Below, one piece after another: positions 9,175-38,522 of a stretch of DNA of 64,000 nt; positions within the stretch are counted from its first letter, which is position 1; the number at the start of each line of letters is the position of its first letter. Made by a program: the position numbers and the translations under genes. The notes under the pieces were generated by a model. The model ran no database searches, was not told the DNA's origin, and saw only the letters and a list, made by a program, of their open reading frames with translations. Origin of the DNA: Kordiimonadaceae bacterium (GTDB taxonomy: Bacteria > Pseudomonadota > Alphaproteobacteria > Sphingomonadales > Kordiimonadaceae); NCBI GenBank assembly GCA_017640725.1, contig JAEPQB010000001.1:1240001-1304000 (forward strand), given 5' to 3'.

Positions 9175-11613
9175 TTATTCATATCGAAGCGCCTTAATCG
9201 GGTTGGCACGCGCCACCGCCACGGCATGCATTGCAACAATTCCCCAGGCAGCACACACCCCGATCAATCCCGCAATGGCAATAATGCCGATGGGAAGGCT
9301 GATCCGGTCGGTGAAAAAATCCAGATATAGATTCATGGAGAAATAGGCGAGCGGCAGCGCCAACAGGAGCGCCCAGATTACTGGCTTGGAAAACTGCCAG
9401 ATCAGAAGCCGGATAACTTGCTGCACATTTGCCCCCATCACCCGGCGAATACCTATTTCTTTGGTGCGTTGTTCCGCCATAAATGCAGCAAGACCAAACA
9501 GCCCAATCAATGCCAGCGACAGAGCGAGCGCCGCAAAGGCAGCCAGTGCCATATTGATCGCGCGAAAAATTCCATAAACACCTTCAAAGGTTTCACTCAG
9601 GAACACCGTTTGGATGGGATAGTCTGGAATGACACGGTCCCAAACAGCTTCGATGTCTCGGAGCGTTTGCTCGACGCCTACCGGCTTGAACCGCACGGCA
9701 GCGTTATATTGGCCCGGTATTACTTCGAATTGGAACGGTTTGATGACATTGTGGAAGCCAAGGAAATTCTGGTTCTCCACAACACCAACAATAGTGAACT
9801 GTTGTTGCCCTTCAATTGCTTCACCTTCGCCGGGTAGTTCAAAGTAAGTTTGCCCAAGCGCTGCTTCTGGCGATGTGAAACCAAGCTTTTCTACGGCCAA
9901 TTCGTTGACAATAACATTCTGCGCTGCGTCTCGGCTGCGATATGTATCTGCAGCCACTTCGAGCGAGAAGTCGCGCCCTGCAACAAGCGGTATGTCGAGT
10001 GTCGCCAGGAAATCATGATCGACGCGGTTGCGGTTGATGCTGAAGCTTGCTGTTTCGTCACCGCTTGTTGGGGTCACATCCTGCGTGCTGTTGCTTTGGT
10101 CAAATGGCACCTGGGACATTACAGACACGCTGACAACACCGGGCAAACGATTGAGTTCATTTTTCAATGTCTCAACACGGTCCCTGACACCGTCCACATC
10201 GAGCCGCTCCAGCACCAGGATTTGGTCCGTTGGGTAGAGATTTATGGTATCTCGCACTTTCTGGTTCTGGAAATACATCACCATCACTGCGGCCAGCATG
10301 AAAATGGCGATGACAAACTGAAGGCCGATCATGGTGGAGCGCATGAGGGACTGTGTTCCGCCTTTGTTGTTTCCATCGCGCAAGGCCTGAATAGGGGTTG
10401 AGCGTGTAATCTGATAGGCGGGATAACCGCCCGAAACAAAAGCGACCGCCAATACAGTTGCTGTGAGCCACGGCAAAATGTCGACAAGGTTTAGTGCCAG
10501 CACTTTGCCCGATGCCTGGTTAAAGAGCGGCACAATAAGTTCTAGCAGGACCAGTGCTATGGCCATGGCGATTGACGTCAATACAAGGCTCTCTGTCAAA
10601 AACTGTGTCAGCAATTGCTGACGCATGGCGCCAAGTGTTCGGCGCAGTCCCACTTCGCGGGTACGACCAATATTCTGCGCTGTTGCCAGATTGGCATAAT
10701 TTACTGAAGCAACCACCAAAACCAGCAATGACAAAAGTGAGATGCTGCCCAGGATCGGCATCCCAATCGCATCCCAGATGAAGGTGTTGGCCTCGCCGAG
10801 GGGACGCAAGGTAGCATCGGCTATCAACCGCTCTTGCAGGTCTTCGGGTGCATGGGTCTTGAACAGGGCTGAAAGGCTCGTTTGCAACCTTTCAACATCA
10901 TGCTGCTGGGGTGCGAGCAGATATGTTCGGTCCCCAAGAGACAAATTGTTCCAGTCCTGTGTTGGATCATAGTTGTTGGTCTGCTCCAACACGGAAAGTT
11001 GGGCAATCGCACCCACTTTGCCTTCTCCAAAAAGGGAAGAATTAAAGTGTGTGTTTGCCGGCAAATCTTGAATAACAGCTGAAACCGTCAGCGCATGGTT
11101 ATGATCCAGGGTGATGGTCTGACCAACTGGGTTTGCGGCGCCAAACAGCCTCTGTGATGTTGTCTCGGTGATGATGATGCTTGATGGGTCCAAGAGGGCA
11201 TTTGCATCACCATAGATATATGACAGATCAAAAATTGTGGTGAACCCGGGGCTTGCAAAACGAATTTCCTGATAGAAATCGTTGTCGCCCACTGTGATCA
11301 GAAACTCCTGGCGCTTCAGATAGGCGACTGCTTCCAAGTCCGACATATTGGTTTCTATATGCTGCAAGAATGCCGCATGTACTGAATCAGTTTGTCGCAA
11401 ACCAATATTGGCGCTTGGAGCAATCAGAGAGCCAACCGTGTATATGCGGTCAACCTTCGAGAACATCTGGTCATGGCTGCGCTCATAGTCCACAAGCACT
11501 GTGCCAAACACATATACGGCTAACCCAATGGCAAGCCCGAGGATATTAATCAGCGCATAAAGCCGGTTTTTCAGCAAATTTCGGATCGCTGTCGTGATGT
11601 AGTTTTTTATCAT
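9175..11613 (-). CDS. two-module MacB/FtsX-type ABC permease, array copy 5
   Basis: 812 residues with the same eight-helix, two-periplasmic-domain layout as its neighbours. First transmembrane segment at ~20-42, unit-1 coupling segment RTREVGLRRTLGA, unit-2 segment RTKEIGIRRVMGA followed by WQFSKPV, and C-terminus NPIKALRYE. The periplasmic domains differ clearly from those of the other copies, while TM and coupling segments are conserved, suggesting a common ATPase but different periplasmic partners or ligands (inference). GGGAGA six bases before the ATG is a good ribosome binding site. The 60-base gap before it in the operon is A/T-rich without a usable terminator. Confidence 0.9.
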   Translation of the reverse strand: MIKNYITTAIRNLLKNRLYALINILGLAIGLAVYVFGTVLVDYERSHDQMFSKVDRIYTVGSLIAPSANIGLRQTDSVHAAFLQHIETNMSDLEAVAYLKRQEFLITVGDNDFYQEIRFASPGFTTIFDLSYIYGDANALLDPSSIIITETTSQRLFGAANPVGQTITLDHNHALTVSAVIQDLPANTHFNSSLFGEGKVGAIAQLSVLEQTNNYDPTQDWNNLSLGDRTYLLAPQQHDVERLQTSLSALFKTHAPEDLQERLIADATLRPLGEANTFIWDAIGMPILGSISLLSLLVLVVASVNYANLATAQNIGRTREVGLRRTLGAMRQQLLTQFLTESLVLTSIAMAIALVLLELIVPLFNQASGKVLALNLVDILPWLTATVLAVAFVSGGYPAYQITRSTPIQALRDGNNKGGTQSLMRSTMIGLQFVIAIFMLAAVMVMYFQNQKVRDTINLYPTDQILVLERLDVDGVRDRVETLKNELNRLPGVVSVSVMSQVPFDQSNSTQDVTPTSGDETASFSINRNRVDHDFLATLDIPLVAGRDFSLEVAADTYRSRDAAQNVIVNELAVEKLGFTSPEAALGQTYFELPGEGEAIEGQQQFTIVGVVENQNFLGFHNVIKPFQFEVIPGQYNAAVRFKPVGVEQTLRDIEAVWDRVIPDYPIQTVFLSETFEGVYGIFRAINMALAAFAALALSLALIGLFGLAAFMAEQRTKEIGIRRVMGANVQQVIRLLIWQFSKPVIWALLLALPLAYFSMNLYLDFFTDRISLPIGIIAIAGLIGVCAAWGIVAMHAVAVARANPIKALRYE

Positions 11614-11673: not shown

Positions 11674-14106
11674 TTATTCGTACCTGAGCGCTTTCACTGG
11701 GTTGGCCCGCGCCACTTTGAACGCGTGCCCGGCAACGGTCGCCCATCCGATCGCGACCGCCGTCAAGGCCACCATGACGAAGGGGGCGGCTTCCATGTCG
11801 ATCCGGTAAGCAAAGCCACTGAGCCAATCGTTGACCATGTAAACGGCGATCGGCAAAGCCACCAAAAGCGCAATTACAATCGGCTTTGAAAATTGCCAGA
11901 TCAGCATCACCGCAACGTCTGTGAAGCTGGCACCTAGCACCCGACGAATACCAATTTCCTTTGTGCGCCGGTCAACGGCAAACGATGCCAGGCCATAAAG
12001 TCCCAGGCAGGAAATCGTAACTGCGAGCAGCGTGAAGGCCATGAGTGCCGTGCTTAGTTGATCCTCTGTTTGATACTGCTCTTCCACCAGATCGCCCATA
12101 TAGCTGTAGAACAACACCTGATCGGGGAACATGTCGCGCCACACGGCCTCCAGGTCAGCGATAGCAGCTTCCCGGTTAAATCGGCTGAGGCGCACCGTCA
12201 TTTCAGCCAAACGGCGTTCATCCAGATAATAGATGCCCGGGCGGATAACATCGCGCGCGCTGTCAAAGTGGAAATCGTCAACCACGCCCACAATCGTTGC
12301 TTCCAAATATTGTGTGGCTGTCAGGTTAGTAGGCACGGTTTGTCCAATCGCGGCAGCTGGGTCTTTGAACCCCAGCAGTTCGGCCCCGGATTTGTTCACT
12401 ACAATATTCGCGCGCTCGCGGTATTCGCCGTCGCCCGCGCGCTGCCGCAAATAGTCAGCTTCGGTGTCGGTCAGGTATCGGCCGGCGATGAGCGGAATTT
12501 CAAAGACGGAGAAAAAGTCCGCGTCGGTTGGCAGGCCGTCAAGCGTGACAAGTTCTTCGGTTCCCAATTGGCGCATGGTCAGACGGTCTTCGCTGCCGCG
12601 AGTTGGCACATCTGATGAGCGGCCCACAGATACGATGTGATCGCTCGCGAGCAGGCGGGTTTTGAGTGCGTTTGATTGATCACTGTTGGTGCCCGCGACA
12701 ACAATCAGGTTTTCCGGATTGAAACCAAGGTCGAGGGTGCGCGCAAAATTGGTTTGCTTGTTGACAAAAAACGCCCCGACCATCAATGCAATCGAAATGG
12801 TGAACTGCGCCACCACAAGAACGCTGCGTAGCCGACCTGTGGAATGGTCCGATGACATGTTGCTATAGAGCACATCCCGTGGCTTCAGGAGCGCAAAATA
12901 GGTTGCCTGGAAGCTGCCCGCCACCAAGCCCACTGTGATCACCAGCATCAAACCGCCAACGGCGATGCCAGGGCCCGCAAAAAAGTCGAAGGCAACAACA
13001 GCGGAAAGGAATTCGTTGTAATAGGGCAAGGATACCTCAACCAATACGAACGCCACGGTCATTGCAATCAGCGCAAGGGCTGTCGCTTCGCCGAGGAACT
13101 GCTCAACGATTTGCTTGCGGCTGGCGCCCACCACTTTGCGCATGGCAACCTCGCGCGCACGGTTTGAGGTGCGCGCCATCGACAAGTTGAGGAAGTTGGC
13201 GACGGCAATCAAAAGAATGAGCGCCGCCAGCCCAACAAACCCCATCAGCACATCCGGGTCGCTTGTCGACGCATGCGAATAAAGGTGTGCGTCCGTTAGC
13301 GCGACCAGATGCAAAATCACGGTACGCGCATTTTCCTGCCCTGCTTCGTCTTCTGGTTTTGGCCGGTGCTGTTCCACCAGGCCCGGCAAGGCGGCGCGAA
13401 CGCTGTCAACATTGGTGCCCGGCGCAAATTTCACAAAAACATTGCGATAGAGAAAGCGCCAGTCTTCGGTGAACCAGCGGGACCCGACAAAATATTCGCG
13501 GTTGAACGGCAAAATGAAATCATGATCGATGTGTGTGTCGACAACCGGGTCTGTGATGACCGCGGATACAGTGAAGTCGCGAAACTCGCCGCCGATGCGA
13601 ATGGTAACGGTGCGCCCAAGGGCTGCCTGATCTCCATAAAGTGATAGCGCCGAGCGCTCACTGATCACCACACTGTTCATCGAATTGAACGCTGTATCAG
13701 GGTCGCCAGCCAAAAACTCAAAATCAAAAAATTCGAAGAAATTGGGGTCGGCCAGCAGGCCTTCCTGCAACATCACGGCACCGTCCCGCATGATCGACAT
13801 GCCGCCTTCCATATAGCGGGTGACCGCTTCCACTTCGGGCACACTGTCGAGCAGAATGTCTTTCATGGGGTCCGGCGCATAAGGGCTCAGCCGGTCGGTG
13901 CTCACAGGGTGTTGGAGCGTGGTCTCAAGGCGGTAAATATCTTCTGCGCGCTCCCAGTGATCATCCCAGCCAAACTCGTCGCGCACAAACAAAAGAATAA
14001 GCGCGCAGGCCGCCAGACCAATCGCAAGCCCAATGATGTTGATGAAGGAAAACAGCTTGTTCCTGATCAGGTTACGAAAGGCGATTTTCACATAGTTGCT
14101 AAACAC
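11674..14106 (-). CDS. two-module MacB/FtsX-type ABC permease, array copy 4
   Basis: 810 residues, same two-unit architecture. The start is GTG at 14106, only nine bases after the stop codon of copy 3; these nine bases contain the Shine-Dalgarno GGGGA, so translation is likely coupled. Coupling segments are RAREVAMRKVVGA and RTKEIGIRRVLGA; the protein ends NPVKALRYE. N-terminal MFSNYVKIAFRNLIRNKLFS is the family's amphipathic lead-in to TM1. It depends on an ATPase encoded elsewhere in the operon (21659-22342), since it has no nucleotide-binding domain itself. Confidence 0.9.
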   Translation of the reverse strand: MFSNYVKIAFRNLIRNKLFSFINIIGLAIGLAACALILLFVRDEFGWDDHWERAEDIYRLETTLQHPVSTDRLSPYAPDPMKDILLDSVPEVEAVTRYMEGGMSIMRDGAVMLQEGLLADPNFFEFFDFEFLAGDPDTAFNSMNSVVISERSALSLYGDQAALGRTVTIRIGGEFRDFTVSAVITDPVVDTHIDHDFILPFNREYFVGSRWFTEDWRFLYRNVFVKFAPGTNVDSVRAALPGLVEQHRPKPEDEAGQENARTVILHLVALTDAHLYSHASTSDPDVLMGFVGLAALILLIAVANFLNLSMARTSNRAREVAMRKVVGASRKQIVEQFLGEATALALIAMTVAFVLVEVSLPYYNEFLSAVVAFDFFAGPGIAVGGLMLVITVGLVAGSFQATYFALLKPRDVLYSNMSSDHSTGRLRSVLVVAQFTISIALMVGAFFVNKQTNFARTLDLGFNPENLIVVAGTNSDQSNALKTRLLASDHIVSVGRSSDVPTRGSEDRLTMRQLGTEELVTLDGLPTDADFFSVFEIPLIAGRYLTDTEADYLRQRAGDGEYRERANIVVNKSGAELLGFKDPAAAIGQTVPTNLTATQYLEATIVGVVDDFHFDSARDVIRPGIYYLDERRLAEMTVRLSRFNREAAIADLEAVWRDMFPDQVLFYSYMGDLVEEQYQTEDQLSTALMAFTLLAVTISCLGLYGLASFAVDRRTKEIGIRRVLGASFTDVAVMLIWQFSKPIVIALLVALPIAVYMVNDWLSGFAYRIDMEAAPFVMVALTAVAIGWATVAGHAFKVARANPVKALRYE

Positions 14107-14115
14107 GGTGTCCCC

Positions 14116-16602
14116 CTATTCATACCTGAGAGCTTTAATCGGGTTGGAACGCGCCACCCGGGCCGCGTTGCCGCCCACTGTGACCCAGGCAATCATGAGC
14201 GCGATCACGCCGGCAATCACACAAAGCGGCACAATGAGCCAGCTTTCCATTCGATACGGGAAGCTCTCAAGCCACGTGATCATGCCATAGGCAACCAGTG
14301 GCCATGCGATGATGTTGGCAATCAAAACGGGTTTGGAGAACTGCCAGATCAGCAAGCGCACAATGTCGAGCACGGTTGCTCCCATCACCTTGCGAATGCC
14401 AATTTCTTTTGTACGCCGCTCGGCCGTAAACGACGCGAGGCCATAGAGGCCTAGGCAGGCGATCACGATCGCCAGACCTGAAAACACCGCCAGCATAATG
14501 GACTGTTGTTCTTCGCGGGCAAACTCTCCTTCGATACGCTCATCGATAAAGCTATAAGCGAACGGCACTCCGGGTGCGAGGTCGCGCCAAATCGTTTCGA
14601 CTTGTTGGATGACGGCCTGTGCGTCGCCCTCAAATTTGATGGAAAGGTCCAGATAATAGTCCGTAGGCAATTGATACATTTCGGGTCGCATCGGTTCGCG
14701 CATGGACTGGTATTGCATATCACGAACAACACCAATGATTTCCAACAAAGCTTCATGCTCTCTATCAAGGAAGATGCGCAACTGCTCTCCAACTGCGGCA
14801 GCGGGTGATGCAAAACCCATACGGTAAGCAGCCGCCTCATTTAGGATAATCGCGCCCCTTTGTCGTTCGCCGTCTACCGCGTTTTCTGCCACAGGGGTGA
14901 CATCCGTTTTGCGAGCCCGTTCATAAAAGCGGCCCGCCAAGAGCTCAACGTCATACAAAGGGAAGAAATCATGATCGACCACTTGCACACCTATCAGCAT
15001 GCTTTCCTTGTCACTTTCCCCTTCCCGGACCACGGTGGTATTGCCAGTATTCCCGTTCACTGGCGTGTCCGGCGCGAGGCTGGTCATCGTCACCCCAGGG
15101 ATTTGCTGCACCTCCTCGCGTAACGTCTCTTGTTTTCCTTGAACACCAGACAAATTGAGGTTGCTGACCACCATAATGTTTTCCTTGGAAAACCCGGGGT
15201 CCACAGAGGTAACATAAAGGCGTTGGCCGTAGACGACGCTTGTCGCAACAATCAATCCAATAGAAATCGCAAACTGCGTGATAACCAGCACATTGCGGAG
15301 GGACACAGAGCCGCTGGTCTCTGTTGATCGATTGGCTTTCAATACACGTGCCGGTAAAAACCCTGAAAGCACCAGGGCTGGATAGGCACCACCGACTGAG
15401 CCAACAAAAGCCACCAACCCAAGTAGCAAAACGATGGTGGAACCGTCTGAGTAATCGAGGGCAAGTGACTTGCCAAGCAAGTCGCTAAAGGGGTCGATCA
15501 TTAGTTCGACCAAGGCAACACCCACCGCCAGTCCAATAAGCGCTATCAAGACGGACTCGCCAATAAACTGTGTCATCAGTTGACCGCGATGAGCGCCAAG
15601 CACTTTGCGCAGGGCAACCTCGCGAGCGCGCTGTGTTGATTTAGCCGTTGCCAAATTCATGAAATTGATACAAGCAATCAGGAGGGTGAGCAGGGCTATC
15701 GCCACAAACATAACCACACTTGTCATGCTGCCGGTTGGCTTCATTTCCGACCCAATGCGACCCTGCGGAAACAGCTGAAGGTCTTTGATACTTTGGGCCC
15801 TCATTTCAAGAAAGTCGGAAGCTTGCTCGAAGGCCCCGGCGTCCGGGTCGATTTTGATCGCATTATTTACAAATGGGGCAGACTGGTCGTTGATCGTGTC
15901 TATGCTCGAACCTGGTTTTAGCTCAAAAAACAGATAGGAATTGGTGCTGTACCACTGTTCAAATTCCCATGACTGATTGGTGAAGTCCGCTTCGTCGATT
16001 GCCGCAAACGCCTGAACATCCAGAACGGTGTTTTCGGGCAGGTCCTCAAAAACAGCAGCTACCTTATAGTCTCGCGCAATGTCATAAATATTGAGGTTCA
16101 CCACCTCACCCAGAGCGTCGGTTGTGCCAAAATATCGCTCTGCGAACGATCGATTGACGGCAAGGCTGGATTTGTCACCCAAAGCATCCTTCATGTCGCC
16201 CGCAATAACATTAAAGTCAAAAATCTCTGCGGTTTCCGGGTCAGTCCAGTGGATGCGTTCACTCGCCACTTGGTCTTTGTGCCGAAGGATCGGGAAAAAG
16301 GTTCTTATTCTTGTCGTTGCTAATACATCCTCGGAAAAGTAGCGAATAAGTTCATGCTTTGCCGGGCCAGGCGCTTTAACGAAATGCATGGGTTCGCGGC
16401 CTGGAATATTGAACGTATTGTGCAGCCGATAAATCCGGTCCGCTTTGTTCCAGTGCTTGTCGTAAGAGAGCTCATCGCGCACAAACAGGGCGATCATGAC
16501 GCAGGCGGCCAGTCCAACCGCCAGGCCTATGATGTTAATGAAGCTATAGAGCTTGTTTGCGACCAGGTTCCTTAAGGCGACTTGTAAATAGTTGTTAAAC
16601 AT
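14116..16602 (-). CDS. two-module MacB/FtsX-type ABC permease, array copy 3
   Basis: 828 residues. Coupling segments RAREVALRKVLGA and RTKEIGIRKVMGA, C-terminus NPIKALRYE. By eye this is the closest relative of copy 2 (16612-19113): they share the LGAxRGQLxTQFIGESVLIAL segment of unit 1 and nearly the whole last 80 residues, including WVTVGGNAARVARSNPI. Only nine bases, containing GGGAA, separate its ATG from the stop codon of copy 2, an arrangement repeated on its other side. The pair probably arose by recent tandem duplication. Confidence 0.9.
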   Translation of the reverse strand: MFNNYLQVALRNLVANKLYSFINIIGLAVGLAACVMIALFVRDELSYDKHWNKADRIYRLHNTFNIPGREPMHFVKAPGPAKHELIRYFSEDVLATTRIRTFFPILRHKDQVASERIHWTDPETAEIFDFNVIAGDMKDALGDKSSLAVNRSFAERYFGTTDALGEVVNLNIYDIARDYKVAAVFEDLPENTVLDVQAFAAIDEADFTNQSWEFEQWYSTNSYLFFELKPGSSIDTINDQSAPFVNNAIKIDPDAGAFEQASDFLEMRAQSIKDLQLFPQGRIGSEMKPTGSMTSVVMFVAIALLTLLIACINFMNLATAKSTQRAREVALRKVLGAHRGQLMTQFIGESVLIALIGLAVGVALVELMIDPFSDLLGKSLALDYSDGSTIVLLLGLVAFVGSVGGAYPALVLSGFLPARVLKANRSTETSGSVSLRNVLVITQFAISIGLIVATSVVYGQRLYVTSVDPGFSKENIMVVSNLNLSGVQGKQETLREEVQQIPGVTMTSLAPDTPVNGNTGNTTVVREGESDKESMLIGVQVVDHDFFPLYDVELLAGRFYERARKTDVTPVAENAVDGERQRGAIILNEAAAYRMGFASPAAAVGEQLRIFLDREHEALLEIIGVVRDMQYQSMREPMRPEMYQLPTDYYLDLSIKFEGDAQAVIQQVETIWRDLAPGVPFAYSFIDERIEGEFAREEQQSIMLAVFSGLAIVIACLGLYGLASFTAERRTKEIGIRKVMGATVLDIVRLLIWQFSKPVLIANIIAWPLVAYGMITWLESFPYRMESWLIVPLCVIAGVIALMIAWVTVGGNAARVARSNPIKALRYE

Positions 16603-16611: not shown

Positions 16612-19113
16612 CTATTCGTACCTAAGAGCATTAATGGGATTGGAACGCGCCACCCGGGCCGCGTTGCCGCCGACAGTGACCCAGGCAATCATCAGCGCAA
16701 TCAAACCGGCAACCACACAGAGTGGTATCAAGACCCAGTCGGCAATACGGTATGGGAAGGTCTCCAGCCACTGAAGTGTAGACCATACAGCGATTGGCCA
16801 AGCGATTAGGCTGGCGAGCAAAACCGGCTTGGAAAACTGCCATAAAAGAAGGCGGATAATGTCCATGACCCGCGCGCCCATGACTTTGCGTATGCCAATT
16901 TCTTTGGTTCGCCGTTCCGCGGTGTATGCGGCTAGACCATATAGACCCATGCAAGCAACCAGTATGGCCAGAGCCGCGAACACACCAAGCGTAGTCGCCA
17001 GATTTTGCTCGCCCATAAACTCTGATTCTATCAGTTCGTCGACAAATTCGTAACGGAACGGAATAGTGGTTGTGAGGTCGCGCCAGATGTTTTCCAACTG
17101 AGCAACCAGCTCAAGTGGGTTTCCTTCAAACCGTACGGCCAGGTTTCTGTAGCGACCGTCAACCAGATAATACATTTCTGGACGGATCACTGAGCGAAGC
17201 GACTGAAAATTTGTATCCGACGCCACGCCAACAATTTCCAAATGTGCGTAGCGTGTCGCCTGACCCGGTCCACCACGACCAGCGGGAACGCGAAGCAACT
17301 TGCCGAGCGCTTCCTGAGCAGATGGAAAACCAAGTCGGCGCAGCGCTGCTTCATTCACAATTACCGTGCCGTTCAGCAGCTCGCCGGCCTCGGTGTCGCT
17401 TGCGTCAGGAAGGCCGTCATTGGCAAATTCTCTCGAATAACTTCGACCAGCAACAATCGGGATTTGGTAAACATCGAAAAAGTCGTGATCCACGGTCTGA
17501 CGTCCAATCAGAACTGACCCCAATTGCTCATTTCCCGGAATTTCCACGGATGTGTTGCTTTCATTGCCGCTTATTGGTGCATCAGCAGAATAGGTTGCGC
17601 CCAGCACTCCGGGCAAACTAACAACCTCCTGAAACAGGGCTTGCTGTTTGTCCTGAAAACCAGAACGGTTCACATTGCGAACGATCAACAGGTTTTCTTT
17701 ATTGAAGCCCGGATCAAGCGTGGTTGCATAGAACATCTGGCCATACACGACGCCCGTTACCACAATAAGGGTAATGGAAATCGCGAACTGCAATATCACC
17801 AATGTGCCTCGCACACGTGCCGAGCCCTGAGTTTCGGCAGAGCGGTTGGCTTTGAGAATGCGCGACGGCCGAAACCCAGAGAGAACAAGCGCAGGGTATA
17901 GTCCGCCTACAGCGCCCACAAATGAGATCAAACCAAAGAACACGCCAACCGTTGTGGTATCGGTATAGTCAAGGGTCAGTTCTTTATCGAGAAAGTCACC
18001 AAAAGGCGCCACCAGAAGTTCCACAAGCACCACACCCAAAACCAGACCGAAAAGCGCGATGAGGACAGATTCGCCGATGAACTGCGTTACAAGTTGACCG
18101 CGCTTGGCACCAAGAACTTTCCTCAAGGCCACTTCTCGCGCCCTGCGCGTAGATTTAGCTGTGGCGAGATTCATGAAATTGATGCAGGCAATCATCAAAA
18201 TCAGCCCCGCGATTGTGGCAAAAATCACGACAATTTGCATATCGCCCGTGGTTTTCATCTCACCGCCACCAGACGGGTTCAACTGGATATCCGTGAGCGC
18301 CATTGTATTGAATTCGATAATGTCTGAGGGCTTGGTTTCTTCGTCCAGCGCTCCTGGTGGAATAGCGATCCCGTTGTCGATAAATTCGATCATTCGGGAG
18401 TTGATTTGCTCGATAGAAACACCCGTCTTAAGCTGCATGAAATACATGGTGTTGACCGAAAACCATTGCTCGAACAAAGAAGGTGTACTCGCAAAATCCT
18501 GCTCATCGATCATTGCAAGCGCCTGGAAATCCAGCACCGTGTTGTGAGGCAAATCTTCAAACACTGCCGCAATGCGATAGTCGCGCTGAAGGTCAAAGCT
18601 GTTGAGTGTCAGCACCTGCCCTATTGCCGGTTTGTCGCCAAAATATTTACGCGCGAAACTTTCATCAATCGCAAGGCTGGCGTTATCAGAAAGCGCTGCT
18701 TGAAGATCACCCGCCACAACCCGCAAATCGAAAATTGAAGCCGCTTCAGGGTCAGCCCAATGGACGCTTTCTCGCACCACGCGGTCTTCATATTGAACAA
18801 TCGGAGTCATGCCGGCGAACCGTGTCGAGGCTTCAATTTCGGCATCAAAATATCGGTCGGCCGCGTCCTTCAGCGGACCAGGGGCTAGGACCAATACAAA
18901 AGGCTCGCGTCCCGGCACATTGAAGGTTGTTTGCACCCGATAAATGCTATCGGCATTTTTCCAGAATTTATCGTAGGAAAGTTCGTCCCGGACAAACAAT
19001 AGAATCAAGATGCATGCGGATAACCCGACGGCCAGTCCCACAACATTTATGGTGCTATAAAGCCGGTTCCCTAGAATGCTTCGAATGGCGACCTGCAGAT
19101 AGTTCTGGAACAT
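16612..19113 (-). CDS. two-module MacB/FtsX-type ABC permease, array copy 2
   Basis: 833 residues; eight predicted membrane helices and two extracytoplasmic domains. Coupling segments RAREVALRKVLGA (preceded by AKSTR) and RTKEIGIRKVMGA; C-terminus NPINALRYE. Near-duplicate of copy 3, with DNA tracts over 30 bases identical at the 3' ends of the two genes. Follows copy 1 by 27 bases in the operon. No catalytic nucleotide-binding motifs are present, as expected for a separate permease subunit. Confidence 0.9.
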   Translation of the reverse strand: MFQNYLQVAIRSILGNRLYSTINVVGLAVGLSACILILLFVRDELSYDKFWKNADSIYRVQTTFNVPGREPFVLVLAPGPLKDAADRYFDAEIEASTRFAGMTPIVQYEDRVVRESVHWADPEAASIFDLRVVAGDLQAALSDNASLAIDESFARKYFGDKPAIGQVLTLNSFDLQRDYRIAAVFEDLPHNTVLDFQALAMIDEQDFASTPSLFEQWFSVNTMYFMQLKTGVSIEQINSRMIEFIDNGIAIPPGALDEETKPSDIIEFNTMALTDIQLNPSGGGEMKTTGDMQIVVIFATIAGLILMIACINFMNLATAKSTRRAREVALRKVLGAKRGQLVTQFIGESVLIALFGLVLGVVLVELLVAPFGDFLDKELTLDYTDTTTVGVFFGLISFVGAVGGLYPALVLSGFRPSRILKANRSAETQGSARVRGTLVILQFAISITLIVVTGVVYGQMFYATTLDPGFNKENLLIVRNVNRSGFQDKQQALFQEVVSLPGVLGATYSADAPISGNESNTSVEIPGNEQLGSVLIGRQTVDHDFFDVYQIPIVAGRSYSREFANDGLPDASDTEAGELLNGTVIVNEAALRRLGFPSAQEALGKLLRVPAGRGGPGQATRYAHLEIVGVASDTNFQSLRSVIRPEMYYLVDGRYRNLAVRFEGNPLELVAQLENIWRDLTTTIPFRYEFVDELIESEFMGEQNLATTLGVFAALAILVACMGLYGLAAYTAERRTKEIGIRKVMGARVMDIIRLLLWQFSKPVLLASLIAWPIAVWSTLQWLETFPYRIADWVLIPLCVVAGLIALMIAWVTVGGNAARVARSNPINALRYE

Positions 19114-19140: not shown

Positions 19141-21606
19141 TTATTCGTATCTAAGGGCCTCTACAGGTGCCGCACGGGCGGCCTTGAAGGCGTGACCGGC
19201 CACGGTCAACAAAGCAATGGTAAGTGCCAAAATACCAGCCAGTACAAACCACAAAGGATTGGGCGCTACGCGGTAGACAAAATTCTCGAGCCATAGCGTC
19301 ATCACGTAAAAGGCAACGGGCCAAGCCACCACCATGGCGACAAACACCGGTTTGGAGAATTGCCACACAAACAGTTGAAGGATGTCACGCACCCGGGCAC
19401 CCAGCACTTTCCTGATGCTGATTTCGCGGCGGCGCGACTGCGCGCTGTAGGCGGCAAGGCCATATTGGCCAAAGACAGCAATCAGAATGCCCAGAGCAGA
19501 CAGCACGGTTACTGTCTTCAACTCTTGCGCTTCTGCATCATATTGCTGGGACAGAGTCGCTGCCAGATAGTCACTGCTAACTGCTTGGTTTGACATCACA
19601 GCCGACCAGCCCTCCTCAATGGATTGCAGCGCTGTTTCGCGTTGTTCCGGGTCAATCCGCACCATCATCACACTGAAGGCGCCTGGATCAGGATAGAAAA
19701 TCATGGGCTGGATGGCGTCCTTGAGTGACTTGTAATGGACATCAGGTATGACACCGACAACCTCCGCCACTCGGTCATCAGCTTCGGACACAGTGAACTG
19801 CATTTGCTGCCCAATCGCGTTTTCTGGCAGAACAAAGCCAAGGCTTGCCGCTGCGCGCTGATTAAGGACAACCGGCATAACTTGTCCCTGGCGTTCTTGA
19901 AATTCCCACTGGATCCGGTCCATGCCGAAATCTTCGCTGAACAAGCGCCCAGCAACAGGCTCAATGCCCATCATCGGGAAAAAATCAAGGTCGACAGAAA
20001 TGCGACCCATCGTTTGCGCGGCCTCTGGTGCGTCTGCCTGAAGCCGAACGCCAACTTCTGGCACGTAACCCCAAGCGGGAGAGCTATTGCTTGCTGAGAC
20101 AGTAAGAATACCTGGGCGGCCACTGATGGATTTATCAAGCCTGCTTGTCAGTCTAATGGCACTCTCAGGGGCCCGACCCACACCGTACAGGAGCAACACG
20201 TTTTCAGCATTGAACCCAAGGTCGGCCTGACGCGCATACTTTAACTGGCTCCAGATGACAGCTGCGCCAATAGCCAGACAAATGGAAACGGCAAACTGAA
20301 ACACCACCAAAACAGAGCGCAGCCCTTTGCTGCCACGCGCACCTCGGGCATGGCTCGCGAGGACTTTTCCGGGCATTACCGCACTCACGATATAAGCGGG
20401 ATAAACGCCGGCAGCCAAAACAACAAACGCAACCAAGCCTACAAGCCAAAGCAGGAAGCTGGGTTCAGTTAGATTGGCGAGGTCGAGCCGCGTCTGCAAA
20501 AGATCGTTGGCAAATTCGCTTGATAGCTCCACAAGCGTTAGCGCCAGGACAAGAGCGACACAGGCAAGCACAGTTGCCTCCAAAAGGAATTGCACGACAA
20601 GCTGCTGACGCCCTGCCCCCAGGATTTTGCGCAATGCAACTTCGCGGGCTCGCTCGATCGAGCGCACCGTCGAAAGATTAATATGATTGACGCAGGCGAT
20701 CACAACGATCAGGACAGCAATTGCAGCAAACACTGTGAGTTTCAGTTTGTCTGCGGGCGGTCGTATGCCCCAATCATAGGTGCGGTCATTTAAATGTAAG
20801 CCCGAAAGCGACTGTAGAGAATTGTCAATCAAATCAGCAACATTGCCGCCCGCAGGCAACCATCTCGCTGTTTGGAAATTCTGGTGAACAATATCTTCAA
20901 CAGCCTGCTCGGCCAACGCGACAGAAGCGCCTTGTGCAAGCCGAATGTAGGTAAAGGCAGAGAAGCGCTGCCAGTCGCTATCGAAATCGGTGCCGCGCCC
21001 CGCAATTGCTGGCGTCCGTTCCGGGACGATCAGGTCCATTACCATGTGGCTGGTGGTTGGGAAGTTTTTATAAACGCCAACTACCGACATAGCGGTGCCA
21101 TCCAGCAGGAAACTCTCACCCAAAACCGGTCCGTCGCCGAAAAGGCGTTCAGCCAGGTTTTCGGAGACAAGTGCCGCTGTCGCATCGGCGTTAAAATCAT
21201 CGCGCGTGCCTTCAACGATAGGCAATTCAATCATCTCAAGCCAAGCATCATCCACGCCCAGGATTTCCAGATTGAAGCTGAAGCGGTCATCTATTTCGAT
21301 GGTTGACCATTGACGGAGAACTCGCGCCGACGCCTCTAAGCCAGGCACTCTATCATCAAGCACACGAACCAGTGCACCGGGTGTCTGAGCAGAGATAGCT
21401 TCTGTGCGACCAGGCCGTGTGACCCGGCTATCCACAATGAAAATGCGGTCTGCGTTTTTGATATGGCTGTCGTAATGCGTTTCTTGCCATGTAAACAACA
21501 AAGCAATTACCGCAACGGCAAGGCCGATCGCTAAACCAAGAACCGCCATCAAGCCATAGAGGCCCTGACGCTTTAAAACCCTTAATCCGATCAATAGCTG
21601 CGACAT
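19141..21606 (-). CDS. two-module MacB/FtsX-type ABC permease, array copy 1 (operon-proximal)
   Basis: 821 residues, first permease after the ATPase gene (52-base gap). It is the most divergent copy: the N-terminus is MSQLLIGLRVLKRQGLYG instead of the MFxNY lead-in, and the unit-2 coupling segment is RRREISIRKVLGA rather than RTKEIGIRKVxGA. It still ends APVEALRYE and retains unit-1 RAREVALRKILGA and the WQFSKPV motif. AGGAG six bases before the ATG is a good ribosome binding site. Its divergence may mean a constant partner for the other copies, but that is speculation. Confidence 0.9.
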   Translation of the reverse strand: MSQLLIGLRVLKRQGLYGLMAVLGLAIGLAVAVIALLFTWQETHYDSHIKNADRIFIVDSRVTRPGRTEAISAQTPGALVRVLDDRVPGLEASARVLRQWSTIEIDDRFSFNLEILGVDDAWLEMIELPIVEGTRDDFNADATAALVSENLAERLFGDGPVLGESFLLDGTAMSVVGVYKNFPTTSHMVMDLIVPERTPAIAGRGTDFDSDWQRFSAFTYIRLAQGASVALAEQAVEDIVHQNFQTARWLPAGGNVADLIDNSLQSLSGLHLNDRTYDWGIRPPADKLKLTVFAAIAVLIVVIACVNHINLSTVRSIERAREVALRKILGAGRQQLVVQFLLEATVLACVALVLALTLVELSSEFANDLLQTRLDLANLTEPSFLLWLVGLVAFVVLAAGVYPAYIVSAVMPGKVLASHARGARGSKGLRSVLVVFQFAVSICLAIGAAVIWSQLKYARQADLGFNAENVLLLYGVGRAPESAIRLTSRLDKSISGRPGILTVSASNSSPAWGYVPEVGVRLQADAPEAAQTMGRISVDLDFFPMMGIEPVAGRLFSEDFGMDRIQWEFQERQGQVMPVVLNQRAAASLGFVLPENAIGQQMQFTVSEADDRVAEVVGVIPDVHYKSLKDAIQPMIFYPDPGAFSVMMVRIDPEQRETALQSIEEGWSAVMSNQAVSSDYLAATLSQQYDAEAQELKTVTVLSALGILIAVFGQYGLAAYSAQSRRREISIRKVLGARVRDILQLFVWQFSKPVFVAMVVAWPVAFYVMTLWLENFVYRVAPNPLWFVLAGILALTIALLTVAGHAFKAARAAPVEALRYE

Positions 21607-21658: not shown

Positions 21659-22342
21659 TTAAACAGCGGCCCGCAAGTTTTCGGTCACCACATGACCATC
21701 AAACAGGTTGATGGTGCGGCGCGCGTAATCGGCGTGCGCTGGGCTGTGGGTTACCATCACGATGGTGGTGCCTTCAGCGTTCAAGGCCTGCAGCATTTCC
21801 ATCACTTCCTGCCCGTGCGCACTATCAAGGTTACCGGTTGGCTCATCCGCCAGGATCATGGCCTGGTCGCCAACCACAGCGCGCGCCACGGCAACACGCT
21901 GCTGTTGACCACCTGAAAGCTGGCTCGGCATGTGTTTGGCCCGGTGCGCTATGCCCACCTTGTCCATGACTTTTGCAACACGCTCGCGGCGAACACTTGA
22001 TGGGATGTTGTGATAAAGAAGCGCCAGCTCGATATTCTCTTCAACTGTCAGTTCGTCGATCAGATTGAACGACTGGAAGATAAAGCCGATGTTCTGCTTG
22101 CGGATATTGCTGAGTTTCGATTCAGGATAGCCGGCAACGTTCTCCCCCATGAAAACATAGTCGCCACCCGAAGGTGTATCCAGCATCCCGATGATGTTCA
22201 GAAGTGTGGATTTACCGCAGCCCGAAGGGCCCATTATGGCAACAAATTCGCCAGACTCGATTTCAATGTTCACATTATCAAGTGCGACGGTTTCAACCTC
22301 GTCGGTCCGATAGACCTTTGAGAGATTGTGCAACTTCAACAT
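21659..22342 (-). CDS. ABC transporter ATP-binding protein (LolD/MacB type)
   Basis: Cytoplasmic ATPase, 227 residues, the size of stand-alone LolD/MacB-family nucleotide-binding subunits. Walker A GPSGCGKST at ~39-47, Q-loop FQSFNL at ~90, signature LSGGQQQRVAVARA at ~142, Walker B MILADEPTGNLD, and H-switch VTHSPAHA. It is the only ATPase gene in the operon and therefore the presumed energy source for all six downstream permeases. A 116-base gap with a strong hairpin separates it from the adaptor gene upstream. AAAGGAAA before the ATG is the ribosome binding site. Confidence 0.95.
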   Translation of the reverse strand: MLKLHNLSKVYRTDEVETVALDNVNIEIESGEFVAIMGPSGCGKSTLLNIIGMLDTPSGGDYVFMGENVAGYPESKLSNIRKQNIGFIFQSFNLIDELTVEENIELALLYHNIPSSVRRERVAKVMDKVGIAHRAKHMPSQLSGGQQQRVAVARAVVGDQAMILADEPTGNLDSAHGQEVMEMLQALNAEGTTIVMVTHSPAHADYARRTINLFDGHVVTENLRAAV

Positions 22343-22458: not shown

Positions 22459-23802
22459 TCAGTCACCGGATAGTTTGAGCCGGTCCATATCGATAAAGCT
22501 GCTGTAGGGTGAGGTGACCACACGCTCCCCAATCTCCAGGCCTTCCACCACTTCAATGAAGCGGGAGTTGCGGCGCCCTAGGCGCACGTTGCGGCGTACC
22601 GCTTGCGTGCCATCATCTGTCACTACAAAGATCCAGTTGCCACCTGTGTCCTGGTAAAAGGCGCCATTGGGGATGAGAGCAGCGGAACTAGAGTCGCCAA
22701 GCGTGAGCTTGGTTTGCAATGTCTGTCCTCGGCGAATGTCGTCTGGCTGGTTCTCGGCAAACACCAGGTCCACTTCAAATTGTCCGTTGGTCACCTGGGG
22801 GTAAATCTTGGCGACGGTCATGCGGTAGCTCTCTCCACCCCGCTCGAATACAGCGTCCTGACCAAGGTCGACACGGCCCAGATAAAACTCATCAATATTT
22901 GCCGTTAGTTTGTAATTCGCGGGGTCATCCACCTGACCAAGGCGGCCACCGCGTGCAATGCTTTGACCGACTTCAACGTTGAAGCCAGACAATTTACCGT
23001 CAACCGGCGCGCGCACATTTAGCGCGTCCAGATTTTTCTGGGCGTACGCCAGATTGCGCTCAAGCTGCTCACCAGCCGTTTTTAGCGAGGCGAGTTGGGC
23101 CTCTTGCAGGCGCGCATCGGTCGCTTGACTTTCAAGCGTTACCTCGCGGCGATTGATATTGTATTCCAGCTCGTCCTGAGACTGATCCAACTGAGCCTGA
23201 GAAACGGCATTGGTTTTGATGAGTTCCCGCTCGCGCTCCACTTGCCTGGTTAGTCGCTTAATTTGATAGTTGAAGTCCACCAGATTGCGCTTGTGAGACA
23301 AGCGGTTCTGCTCCAACTGCAATTCGATAGTGCGCATGTTGTTGAGCTGCTCGGTCACCAGCGCTTCGTTGCGGGTTACATCGAGCTGAAGGGTGGTGTT
23401 GGACAATTCCACAATCAAGTCACCCTGCTTAAGGGTAGCGCCATCTTCAACAAGCACGCGCTCAACGCGGCCACCCTCAATAGCATCCAGAAAAACGGTG
23501 GTAAGCGGCGTTACCCGTCCGCGGATTGGGATGAAGTCCTCAAAAGTGCCTTCGCTCACGGTTGAGATGACAATCCGGCTCTCGTTGACCCGAAAGGTAC
23601 GACCCGCCGCAGCATCCTGGACAAACATCCAGATGACTGCGGCAGCAGCAAGCACGCCGGCGCCAATTCCAATGGGTTTCCATGGTGTTTTTTTCTTTTC
23701 GATGCGACGGTCCATGCCCGCGCCCGATGCTGGGCGATCTGTGCCGCCTGTTTTCCCGCCGTACATTGGAATTGTATTCTCGCTGATCTGTTTTTTTTCC
23801 AT
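22459..23802 (-). CDS. HlyD/MacA-type periplasmic adaptor (membrane-fusion) protein
   Basis: Inner-membrane-anchored periplasmic adaptor of an ABC efflux or envelope transporter, 447 residues. A cytoplasmic N-terminus of ~40 residues precedes one transmembrane anchor (IGIGAGVLAAAAVIWMFV). Next come a lipoyl/barrel-sandwich half (EGGRVERVLVEDGATLKQGD), a long coiled-coil hairpin at ~120-230, the second lipoyl half (VRAPVDGKLSGFNVEVGQSI) and beta-barrel domains. First gene of the minus-strand operon, transcribed from the sigma-54 promoter at 23861-23876, with an AGAGG ribosome binding site. No outer-membrane TolC-like partner gene is in the window. Confidence 0.92.
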   Translation of the reverse strand: MEKKQISENTIPMYGGKTGGTDRPASGAGMDRRIEKKKTPWKPIGIGAGVLAAAAVIWMFVQDAAAGRTFRVNESRIVISTVSEGTFEDFIPIRGRVTPLTTVFLDAIEGGRVERVLVEDGATLKQGDLIVELSNTTLQLDVTRNEALVTEQLNNMRTIELQLEQNRLSHKRNLVDFNYQIKRLTRQVERERELIKTNAVSQAQLDQSQDELEYNINRREVTLESQATDARLQEAQLASLKTAGEQLERNLAYAQKNLDALNVRAPVDGKLSGFNVEVGQSIARGGRLGQVDDPANYKLTANIDEFYLGRVDLGQDAVFERGGESYRMTVAKIYPQVTNGQFEVDLVFAENQPDDIRRGQTLQTKLTLGDSSSAALIPNGAFYQDTGGNWIFVVTDDGTQAVRRNVRLGRRNSRFIEVVEGLEIGERVVTSPYSSFIDMDRLKLSGD

Positions 23803-23860
23803 CGCCCGCGCCTCTTATGCTGCCCGGGAAAATCCCGGTTGGGTTCGTTAGCGGAGACGG

Positions 23861-23876
23861 AGCAATTGGTGTGCCA
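23861..23876 (-). promoter_or_regulatory. sigma-54 promoter of the six-permease operon
   Basis: On the minus strand the sequence is TGGCACACCAATTGCT. This matches the sigma-54 -24/-12 consensus TGGCACR-N4-TTGCW, with GG and GC separated by exactly ten bases. The expected start of transcription is near 23850, about 48 bases before the adaptor ATG. Sigma-54 promoters need an AAA+ enhancer-binding activator, and one is encoded divergently 113 bases away. Confidence 0.85.
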
Positions 23877-23915
23877 ACATATAACCAATTGTTTTAACGG
23901 TATTAATTGAACTTT

Positions 23916-23931
23916 TGTGCGTTTTTGGACA
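23916..23931. promoter_or_regulatory. candidate activator site 1 (imperfect palindrome)
   Basis: TGTGCGTTTTTGGACA, the weakest of three copies of the motif TGTnCGnnnTnGGACA. Its centre lies about 62 bases upstream of the -12 element of the sigma-54 promoter, a usual enhancer position. Confidence 0.65.
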
Positions 23932-23939
23932 CATTTTTC

Positions 23940-23955
23940 TGTACGATTTCGGACA
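23940..23955. promoter_or_regulatory. candidate activator site 2 (imperfect palindrome)
   Basis: TGTACGATTTCGGACA; the half-sites TGTnCGA and TCGnACA are inverted copies. It is 24 bases from site 1 and 21 bases from site 3, close to whole helical turns, so bound dimers would lie on roughly the same face. Confidence 0.72.
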
Positions 23956-23960
23956 GGGTG

Positions 23961-23976
23961 TGTACGGTTTCGGACA
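23961..23976. promoter_or_regulatory. candidate activator site 3 (imperfect palindrome)
   Basis: TGTACGGTTTCGGACA, one base different from site 2. It ends 12 bases before the start codon of the response regulator gene, so occupancy could also repress that gene (autoregulation; inference). Confidence 0.7.
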
Positions 23977-23988
23977 TTCAGGAAATGC

Positions 23989-25404
23989 ATGGAGACAGCA
24001 ATGCAGGAGCACAATGGCGCTATTCTAATCGTTGACGACGACGAGGATATTCTGGTCGCAGTCAAGCTTCTGCTTAAGCGGCATTTTGATACTGTGATCA
24101 CCTGTAATGACCCGGAAGACATTCCTGTTTTGCTTGCCGCTCACACGTTTGATGCCATCCTGCTCGACATGAACTTTGGACCGGGAGAGTCGTCTGGCGA
24201 GCAGGGATTTCATTGGCTCAGCAAAATCGTGGAGATAGACCCCCAAGCGGTTGTCATCATGATCACGGCCCATGGCGGCGTGAATGTTGCCGTGGAAGCT
24301 ATGAAGCGCGGCGCCACAGACTTTGTCGCCAAACCCTGGCAAAACGAAAAGCTGGTTGCCACGCTAAACACCAGTGTGAAGCTTAGGCGATCCCGTTCCG
24401 AGGCAGAAAAACTCAAAAAAACCAACCGGGCCTTGGCCGCTGTCGCCAGCGCGCCAGCGCAGCCAATATTGGGCAACAGCCCGGCAATAGCCGAAGTGCT
24501 TTCGGTGATCCAGCGCACGGCCCCGACAGACGCTAACGTGCTGATTTTGGGCGAGAATGGCACAGGCAAAGAACTGGTGGCGCGCGAACTTCACAGACTA
24601 TCGAACCGGGCCGGTGAAGTGTTCATGTCGGTGGACATGGGTGCGGTGACCGAGTCGCTTTTCGAATCTGAGCTGTTTGGCCACAAAAAGGGTGCTTTCA
24701 CAGATGCTCGTGAAGACCGGGTGGGCCGCCTGCAGGCTGCCGAAGGCGGCACATTGTTTCTCGATGAAATTGGCAACCTGCCCCTGCATCTGCAAGCCAA
24801 ACTATTAACAGTTCTAGAGCAGCGACAGGTTGTGCCGGTGGGGTCTGACAGGCCCGTTCCCATTGAGGTTCGAGTGATTGCAGCCACCAACATGCCGATG
24901 GAAAAGCTCAAAGACGAAACTGTTTTCCGGCAAGACCTCTTGTTCCGCCTGAACACGGTGGAGGTGCACGTGCCGCCGCTTCGCGACAGGCGGCAGGACA
25001 TTCCAGAGATTGCCCGTCATTATGCCGACCTTTACTGCAAAAAATACGACAAGGAAGCCAAAGGCTTTTCGCCCCAAGCCATGGACGGCATTGTCAACGC
25101 AGACTGGCCTGGCAACGTACGAGCCCTGCGGCATGCCATCGAACGCGCAGTCATTCTCTCTGAATCGGGTGATTTCAGTCCATCCGACTTCGCTTTGGAC
25201 GCCTCGACTGCGCCGCAGGCCGCGTCTTTTGAAGGAGAAGCTTCGGATCAAAGCGCACCTGCAGACTTGAACCTGGAACGACTGGAGAAGACCGCCATTT
25301 CAGGCGCGCTCAAGAAACACCGCTTCAACATCAGCCATGCCGCCAAAGAGCTTGGTATCACTCGGGCAGCGCTGTATCGCAGGATGGAAAAACATGGGCT
25401 TTAA
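23989..25404 (+). CDS. NtrC-type sigma-54-dependent response regulator
   Basis: Phosphorylation-controlled enhancer-binding protein, 471 residues from the ATG at 23989 (a second ATG at 24001 with GGAG is also possible). Receiver domain with acidic pocket VDDDED and phospho-acceptor Asp60 in LLDMNFG; the following loop ([10 protein letters not shown]) is longer than usual. The AAA+ domain has Walker A GENGTGKE at ~187 and a sigma-54 contact loop reading GAFTDA (residues 235-240) instead of GAFTGA. A Fis-type helix-turn-helix ([20 protein letters not shown]) ends the protein. It diverges from the transporter operon whose sigma-54 promoter it should activate. The histidine kinase gene overlaps its 3' end by 11 bases. 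Confidence 0.93.
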
Positions 25405-26746
25405 ACGTTTCAGTGTCCTGCTGGCCGGCCGGCTAGTTGTCATTATGCTTTTGCTGATGGGTATCGCTTATTTGATCCTGTTGCCAGGCTATCATGCAGC
25501 TACTTTTCTCACCTTCTGTGTGATCGTATTTCTGGTGTTTGAAGTATATCGCTTTGTCCAGCGCACCAATGCGGAGGTAAGCCGCTTTCTCGACGCCGCC
25601 CGTTATGCCGATTTCAGCCAGCGGTTCCGTATGCATGATCTGGGTGCCGGGTTCGGTGAGCTTGGTGAAACCTTCACCGATATTTTGAAGCGATTTCAAG
25701 AGGTTCGCGCTGGCCAGGAAAAAGAATTACGGCACTTGAAAGCGCTCGTCGAACATGTGCCGGTACCTCTTATGAGCTTGCATGCAGACGGCGCGCTGAC
25801 CGTATGGAACAATTCCGCACGACGTCTTTTTGGCAGCACCCCTACCACGCACCTGAATGACCTGGCCCAGTTTGGTGAACCGCTCCTGAAAGAAGTTGCG
25901 AGCATCGAACCGGGTGAGCGACGTTTGGTTGGTTTTGACGCTGACGGCGTTGATCAAAAAATGATGCTGGTTGCCACCAAAATCATCATCGACAGCAAGC
26001 CCGAAAAGCTTTTCAGCCTGCAAAATATCCAGTCCGAACTTGATGTGGCTCAGCTACAGGCCTGGCAGGATCTGGTGCGCGTACTAACTCACGAAATCAT
26101 GAACTCAATCACGCCCGTGGCGTCGCTCGCAAAAACCGCCGTAGACCTTGTTGATGACGCAGCCAGCAAAGTTACGGACAACCCTGAGGTTGTTGATGAG
26201 CTCGGCGATGTCAAAGACGCTGTAAACACCGTTGCCAAACGCTCAGACCGGTTAAACCAATTTGTCTCCAGCTACCGCAGCCTGACCCGCCTGCCACCAC
26301 CGGAAAAACAGCTGATTCGCCTCAAGGACATTTTCGAGGAACTTGGCAGTTTGTTTGATAAGGAATGGGCCGAGAAAGGGGTGCAGCTTGTGGCCAAGAT
26401 CGAGCCAGCGGAGCTTGATCTGTCCGCAGACCGCGAAATGCTCGAGCAGGTGTTGATCAATATGATGCAAAACTCTGGTCAGGCGCTCGCAGGCAAAGAG
26501 GATGCAACCGTTTGGCTGCTGGCGCGCCTTAACCGCAGGGGTCGGGTCACGATAGAAGTGGCAGACAACGGCCCCGGTGTGCCAGCCGATATTGCGAAGC
26601 GGATTTTTGTGCCCTTTTTCACCACCAAACGTGAAGGCAGCGGCGTGGGCTTAGCGCTCACGCGCCAGGTGATGATTGCGCATGGCGGAGCCGTAAGCCT
26701 TGCTGAGCGGCCAGGGGGTGGTGCACAGTTTTCACTAACTTTTTGA
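25394..26746 (+). CDS. NtrY-like sensor histidine kinase with intramembrane-type sensor
   Basis: Cognate kinase of the preceding regulator, 450 residues from the ATG at 25394 inside the regulator's last codons. Two N-terminal TM helices (~8-28 and ~32-50) are joined by only a few residues, so there is no periplasmic sensor domain. A HAMP-like linker follows, then a PAS domain (~115-200: [20 protein letters not shown]). The phospho-acceptor motif [10 protein letters not shown] has His233. The ATPase domain has N box [11 protein letters not shown]1 DNGPGVP, F box FVPFFTTK and G2 [11 protein letters not shown]. The HEIMNSxTP type places it with NtrY-like PAS kinases. Confidence 0.92.
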
Positions 26747-27655: not shown

Positions 27656-28105
27656 CTAAAGCATGTCGCTGTAGCGACTGCCAGATTTGATAAGCCGGGT
27701 TGTGATCGATGTATTAAACCGCGTAACACCCGGCAATCGGCTTAGCTGTGTTCGCAACAATTCGTCGAGGCAGGGCATATCCGGCGCCAGTATCTCAAGC
27801 ACATAATCATATTCCCCGGTCACTGCATGACATACGCTGATGCTTTTGTGCGCAACAATGGCCGCCTCAAAAGCTTCATATTGGTCAAAGCTGACAACCA
27901 GATGCACTAGCGCACGGATCTTCAGGCCCAGCGCATCAGCATTCACTCGAGCACCATAGCCCTCAATAAGACCTTTGGCTTCAAGGTCGCGCACACGGTT
28001 CCAGGCTGGTGTTTTGCTCAAGCCCACAGCGTCGCCCAGGGCCGCAAAGGAAAGACGGCCATCGGCTTCCAAAAGCTGCAAAATGCGTTTGTCGACCTTA
28101 TCCAT
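27656..28105 (-). CDS. kynR: Lrp/AsnC-family regulator, probable KynR
   Basis: 149 residues from the ATG at 28105 (MDKVDKRILQLLEADGRLSF). N-terminal helix-turn-helix (ALGDAVGLSKTPAWNRVRDL) and C-terminal RAM domain (residues ~65-145) typical of the family. It is divergent from the tryptophan dioxygenase gene, as kynR is from the kyn genes in Pseudomonas. By that precedent it should activate kyn transcription in response to kynurenine. The long inverted repeat at 28133-28181, directly upstream of its start, is the likely binding region. Confidence 0.8.
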   Translation of the reverse strand: MDKVDKRILQLLEADGRLSFAALGDAVGLSKTPAWNRVRDLEAKGLIEGYGARVNADALGLKIRALVHLVVSFDQYEAFEAAIVAHKSISVCHAVTGEYDYVLEILAPDMPCLDELLRTQLSRLPGVTRFNTSITTRLIKSGSRYSDML

Positions 28106-28132
28106 TTGTTTTTCTATTTTCCGATAATTCAA

Positions 28133-38513: not shown

Positions 38514-38522
38514 TGTGACCTC

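Follow-up and report, generated by a model that had tools for sequence, protein, structure and literature searches.

NtrC-family sigma-54 enhancer systems combine a regulator with receiver, AAA+ and Fis-type HTH domains, tandem upstream palindromes, a −24/−12 promoter and rpoN. The locus described here shares all of these features, with rpoN present in the genome, and differs in that its target is a MacB-type exporter with scattered permeases, and in that the regulator's own gene is probably repressed through the same sites. Two tripartite exporters, MacAB-TolC and the darobactin system DarBCD, share with it an adaptor, a MacB-type ATPase and a MacB_PCD/FtsX permease, and a TolC-family channel (PF02321) lies behind a copy of the same regulatory module in one relative (G055); here, however, six duplicated permeases accompany one ATPase and unlinked orphan permeases are found as well, and scores against the DarBCD NCBIfam profiles are all below the cut-offs (222.6/450, 269.5/375 and 135/700). 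The permeases resemble the duplicated ADOP permeases (TIGR03434) in length—about 800 aa—in having two MacB_PCD and two FtsX domains, and in that unlinked ones lie without a nearby ATPase gene, but those described here are tied to one ATPase operon by a common operator, and their TIGR03434 scores (307.9 and 332.2 for the two array permeases scanned, 256.1 for the unlinked permease at L102) fall below the cut-off of 622.3. Bce-type modules (BceRS-BceAB and GraRS-VraFG), likened to this locus from sequence only, also place an FtsX-family permease beside a kinase with a minimal extracytoplasmic loop, whereas the present locus has an NtrC/sigma-54 output, an adaptor protein and a Gram-negative envelope.

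Control of FtsX-like permeases by sigma-54 has been reported as a COG enrichment: a 2025 PSSM study describes COG0577 permeases as enriched for sigma-54 in the Gammaproteobacteria, Opitutia and Bacteroidia, and calls this the first such link (PMC12316311). In titles and abstract openings, a scope that leaves most subscription papers outside, there is nothing on the regulator, its operator TGTnCG-N4-YGnACA, the geometry, the trans targets or the peptide described below. We consider it highly probable, from the sequence evidence set out here, that positions 23861-23976 are the hub from which a sigma-54 regulon serving a MacB-type (type VII ABC) exporter is controlled, trans targets and autorepression included.

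The window—the whole 64-kb stretch analysed, G000:C6:1240001-1304000—comes from a genome totalling 4.04 Mb (G000). In it, an intergenic region (23803-24000) parts a regulator-kinase pair on the plus strand from a divergent adaptor-ATPase-six-permease operon on the minus strand. The operon begins with an HlyD-type periplasmic adaptor (MFP; 22459..23802; PF13437, with a DarC-like score below cut-off), followed by a MacB/DarD-like ABC ATPase (21659..22342; PF00005, NF038007 score below cut-off) and an array of six MacB_PCD/FtsX permeases of 810-837 aa each. The first of these (19141..21606), duplicated and ADOP-like, and the second (16612..19113) were assigned by family profiles, and the third to sixth (14116..16602, 11674..14106, 9175..11613 and 6616..9129) by Pfam; all are on the minus strand. 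Adaptor, ATPase and permease thus stand in one operon, as in MacAB/Dar-type tripartite exporters (Pfam). In 76 of the 80 loci compared, an adaptor gene adjoins that of the regulator and runs on the opposite strand; these loci are those of the best 80 of 95 regulator relatives and come from alphaproteobacteria, numerous gammaproteobacteria and a single MAG with a Deltaproteobacteria label. Of the other four, three are at contig ends (L039, L060 and L095) and no divergent adaptor was detected in L083. The nearest named relatives of the regulator in this set are from Kordiimonas. Other features were noted nearby and by eye: the ORF after the kinase (26859-27638) has the look of a solute-binding protein, without a Pfam match, and 28229-30078 holds likely tryptophan 2,3-dioxygenase and kynureninase genes adjoining an Lrp-type regulator (27656-28177). 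An SBP_bac_3 protein (L102:12140-12904) adjoins an unlinked permease.

The regulator (24001..25404, plus strand) was described in an earlier note, made from the sequence alone, as NtrC-type, and matches to the receiver (PF00072), AAA+ (PF00158) and Fis-type HTH (PF02954) families bear this out. A Walker A/B check finds GENGTGKE and LDEI, and the sigma-54 contact loop reads GAFTDA instead of GAFTGA, a point against the activator role. Among the best 80 of 95 relatives the loop is GAFTGA in 46, GAFTDA in 24 and GAFTNA in 2, with none detected in 8; GAFTDA is nevertheless listed among loop variants stated to maintain activation (PMC4641369). The genome has one copy of rpoN.

The sensor kinase (25394..26746, plus strand; PF02518, on the ORF read from 25337) has two transmembrane helices predicted by hydropathy, at residues 14-32 and 37-55, with about 4 residues between them. 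This is the Bce-type arrangement of two helices and a minimal extracytoplasmic loop, and a periplasmic sensor domain would not fit between the helices as predicted. Kinases were found at 78 of the 80 loci (best 80 of 95 regulator relatives); judged by hydropathy only, 66 have two helices with 1-13 residues between and 12 a single hydrophobic stretch. In Firmicutes, the kinase BceS works with the FtsX-family permease BceB, and Bce-type kinases need the permease (PMC5985334); GraS similarly works with the FtsX-family permease VraG (PMC7951975). By analogy with BceS and GraS, the window kinase would probably sense what state the transporter is in, which is the more speculative element of our interpretation. 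The opposing proposal, that the kinase responds by itself to a small ligand or to the membrane state and not through the permeases, has a chance not far short of even: a cytoplasmic linker of about 180 residues could bind a ligand, but the minimal-loop layout, with its minority of single-stretch kinases, is that of permease-dependent Bce-type kinases.

The consensus of sigma-54 −24/−12 promoters is TGGCACG-N4-TTGCW. The minus strand of 23876-23861, TGGCACACCAATTGCT, agrees with it at 11 of the 12 specified positions with the GG-N10-GC spacing exact, and would be the promoter of the adaptor-ATPase-permease operon, with a predicted start near 23850. Upstream of it are three palindromes, at 23916..23931 (TGTGCGTTTTTGGACA), 23940..23955 (TGTACGATTTCGGACA) and 23961..23976 (TGTACGGTTTCGGACA), lying 39, 63 and 84 bp from the promoter, the first being the promoter-proximal candidate enhancer site. 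They are better described as a dyad, TGTnCG-N4-(C/T)GnACA. The earlier note had placed the promoter, with its exact spacing, and the three palindromes, spaced 24 and 21 bases, precisely where they are found. Neither promoter nor palindrome has significance by itself in the window, since chance counts in 64 kb suffice: with at most one mismatch, 2.9 matches to TGGCACR-N4-TTGCW are expected and 1 is found, and for single palindromes about 9.9 are expected and 7 found. The case for the module comes from conservation of the elements in relatives, a comparison proposed in the earlier note, and both are kept there between divergent regulator and adaptor genes.

An adjacent tandem pair of sites, each matching at least 9/10, is present in 78 of 81 upstream regions (the window and the best 80 of 95 relatives) and in 0 of 4050 shuffles. 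The three misses are L095, with only 4 bp of upstream sequence on its contig, L096, which has no sites, and L098, whose second site is weak. At least two sites were counted in 79 of the 81: two in 55, three in 23 and four in 1. In 72 of these 79 loci 21 bp separate the last two sites, and in 24 of the 79 a third site lies 22-24 bp outside the conserved pair, at exactly 24 bp in 21 of them. A −24/−12 site is recognisable in 78 of 79 readable regions, the window included. The promoter comparison has 80 rows (the window and the best 80 of 95 relatives, with L095 excluded, having too little DNA); 53 count as canonical, having GG and GC and scoring at least 10/12, 25 have GG and TTG without GC and score 8-11/12, with one member at only 8/12, one (L096) lacks a site, and L039 has no upstream DNA. 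Shuffled controls for the promoter classes gave 5 and, at a score of at least 9/12, 26 of 3160. The 25 main loci without the −12 GC belong mostly to Colwellia and Paraglaciecola relatives. Loss of the promoter in the Colwellia group was considered and rejected, as a GG...TTG site without GC lies at an equal distance, mostly, from the palindromes. A variant of the type TGGAACGATTATTGGA recurs among the 25 (for example L041, L045, L051, L056 and L089), a sigma-54-like promoter with the −24 GG and the TTG kept and the −12 GC absent.

Spacing between promoter and sites is also constrained. In 78 main loci the gaps from promoter to penultimate site fall at 40, 51-53, 61-66, 72-76, 84-87 and 97, with none between these bands, and a period of 11-11.5 bp gives them a mean resultant of 0.86-0.88, or 0.71-0.74 with each distinct value taken once, kinship ignored; the genomes are related and the locus counts are therefore not independent events. 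Such banding is the pattern that helical phasing of an enhancer would give. The description of the three palindromes as phased holds for the 21-bp pair, two helical turns apart, and for the distance to the promoter, but not for the 24-bp step of about 2.3 turns.

The two sites nearest the regulator also bear on expression of its own gene. The left half of site 2, TGTACG, is a possible if poor −35 (3/6 match), and 17 bp further TACGGT within site 3 (23963-23968) is a candidate −10. The regulator-proximal site reads TGTACGnT in 78 of 79 main loci, whereas of the 49 distal sites that precede other targets only 2 do so; that this form is rare in the latter implies that the protein does not need it, and a constraint that fits a −10 (TACGnT) inside site 3 suggests a −10 element and autorepression. 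At L078 the last site ends 2 nt ahead of the regulator's in-frame ATG, so the promoter of the regulator can there hardly be downstream. Sites 2 and 3 overlap the candidate sigma-70 promoter, and binding would therefore also repress the regulator-kinase pair. The alternative is that both sites are enhancers only, that TGTACGnT is a preference of the protein, and that the regulator uses another promoter with no autorepression. In its favour, a sigma-70 and terminator scan of 23700-24100 calls no sigma-70 promoter in the region, the −35 match is poor, and penultimate sites likewise favour A at position 4 (69/79). Distal sites elsewhere, however, have T or C at that position in 45 of 49, and these, with the rarity of TGTACGnT among them and the placement of the last site at L078, make the enhancers-only account unlikely. 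It seems likely that the regulator represses its own gene; the self-repression suggested as a possibility in the earlier note gains from the position-specific TGTACGnT, while the absence of a called sigma-70 promoter speaks against it.

Which protein would use these sites was addressed by co-occurrence across 59 genomes of the window's order, G000 included, with a threshold of E ≤ 1e-120 for the regulator. Strict tandem sites are found in 32 and the reversed pattern in none; the regulator is present in 36, including all 32 with strict sites, and the 23 regulator-less genomes have no strict sites (Fisher p 1.2e-12, kinship ignored). Four regulator genomes lack a strict pair: G007, G012 and G016, each with a relaxed pair at the adaptor gene, and G025. 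Another activator could possibly share the same operator. That the regulator activates the array operon, as the earlier note had it, gains support from the conservation, from rpoN and from the sites never occurring without the regulator in the 59 genomes.

The strict tandem pattern occurs in only two places in the 4.04-Mb genome, the second lying 0.49 Mb away in front of the gene for an 804-aa permease; a sigma-54 site stands between this pair and the gene. A MacB_PCD family search, independent of the sites, gave seven ORFs beyond those of the array, each 817-852 aa long. Four encode duplicated permeases without an ATPase relative nearby, and all four (4/4) have an upstream pair and a sigma-54 site, the pair spacings being 20, 24, 32 and 33 and the second site matching 9/10 in two; the three permeases directly behind an ABC ATPase-like ORF, judged by eye (C6:1071990, C6:918718 and C6:1783287), have no pair before them (0/3). 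No sites were found at two shorter MacB_PCD ORFs inside the window near 37326-39680.

Across the 59 genomes there are 58 strict-pair places, of which 41 were examined (14 main loci and 27 others, the second place in G000 included), not counting the window locus, a further 15 main loci and G055:C40:238. At all 41, the best sigma-54-like site is 39-85 bp from the pair and points away, and 39 score at least 10/12, a score reached by 513 of 40000 random positions (1.3%). A search of the 19 genus genomes for one site plus a promoter, which selects for the promoter, yielded 18 more loci, and a second site is present in 18/18; they comprise 3 adaptor genes, 11 permeases, 2 M61-like peptidases, a permease remnant (L288) and one locus without a clear gene (L291). 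The reversed control gave 2 matches overall, one of them in G000. Four one-site matches without the CG core have a chance-like look (G000:C6:76092, G017:C1:648481, G006:C78:21537 and G018:C1:64488).

At the 49 non-main loci tabulated, the module precedes 37 permeases (36 called by tblastn, one by Pfam), six micropeptides, two M61-like peptidases and one TolC-family channel; L182, L288 and L291 have no assigned gene. Most were found through the sites, so these counts show what the sites precede and not how many permeases lack them. At the 36 tblastn loci (stretches of 3.3-18 kb, in eleven cases no longer than about 5 kb) a permease homologue was found in 36/36, and a relative of the window ATPase or adaptor is absent nearby in 35; the exception, L171, is part of a second array, which has an adaptor and an ATPase of its own. 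The M61-like metallopeptidases (L287 and L294) are membrane-anchored, carry HExxH, match PF05299 and PF17899, and have the same tandem sites and sigma-54 promoter. Two loci have a full site pair and promoter without an evident gene: L182 (G052:C75), with a leader motif, CGACAGCGAGGA, and further downstream a stretch resembling a tRNA, and L291 (G013:C1), with a terminator-like hairpin; these are possibly small RNAs or lost genes. A leader motif, CGACAGCRAGGA, is common to L192, L182 and several micropeptide loci, standing before the start codon and, in L182, alone, and is perhaps more than a ribosome-binding site.

These distributions leave little room for a purely local circuit, in which the regulator would control the neighbouring operon and itself and the unlinked copies would be due to chance or to another regulator. 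Such an arrangement would suit the 31 genomes from beyond the order (30 labelled as gammaproteobacterial and 1 as Deltaproteobacteria), of which 27 have a strict pair, in a single place each, and from this the trans targets appear to be an expansion inside the window's order. Within that order, however, modules precede 37 permease genes among the 49 loci, and the reversed pattern and the regulator-less genomes gave nothing, so that a local circuit is very improbable. A chance origin of the module is rejected by the shuffles, the reversed patterns and the random positions.

The micropeptides form a family of their own. In six of the 19 genus genomes (loci L195, L196, L197, L198, L202 and L213) the module stands at a plsC-like locus before an ORF of 31-42 codons, which has an SD-like motif and lies just downstream of the sigma-54 site. 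The products are cationic peptides of 31-42 aa with a basic, RRxRR-bearing tail in 6/6 and an MxF(L/V)NEV start in 3/6; those in G010 and G002 were assigned by position and tail only. A profile from three of them matched a fourth at the same locus (G004, E 7e-6), and Pfam and NCBIfam scans of all six gave no match. By eye, a G+C-rich hairpin and then a T run follow four of the six ORFs, and the neighbours, by Pfam at one locus, are an acyltransferase (PF01553) and a PilZ protein (PF07238). In G000 the micropeptide was not seen at the plsC locus, and a profile search gave a weak match only (E 1.5). The peptide may be an export cargo, a transporter regulator or an envelope peptide.

From the sites, promoter, conservation, geometry, co-occurrence and target genes read in these genomes, we infer binding, activation and repression as follows. 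The phosphorylated regulator would bind the tandem palindromes as an enhancer, contact sigma-54 RNA polymerase and fire the adaptor-ATPase-six-permease operon. It would also act in trans on unlinked promoters of like build before ATPase-less permeases. This genome has four such targets, to which relatives would add the cationic micropeptide, the M61-like peptidases and the TolC-family channel. One can go further and suppose that a single sigma-54 switch builds a modular exporter, in which one adaptor-ATPase pair serves many interchangeable permeases, the six of the array as well as the scattered orphans, the micropeptide and M61-like peptidase that relatives co-regulate are cargo or maturation parts, and the kinase reads transporter occupancy; we put this forward as a decidedly doubtful proposal. 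If true, the system would be a Gram-negative, sigma-54-driven analogue of the Bce module, and it would answer which ATPase powers the orphan permeases.

As read from the sequence, the enhancer-promoter pair is real and ordinary in kind, yet it is the hub of an unusual regulon linking orphan permeases to one exporter operon. To the COG enrichment it adds a probable activator, an operator, a geometry and a regulon, and it brings under the same operator, in relatives, a micropeptide family that neither Pfam nor NCBIfam matches. Through the common operator, permeases that lack an ATPase are connected with a single ATPase operon, so that what energises the orphan permeases becomes a concretely testable question, and scattered genes, in this and related genomes, become attributable to one regulator through copies of the same switch.
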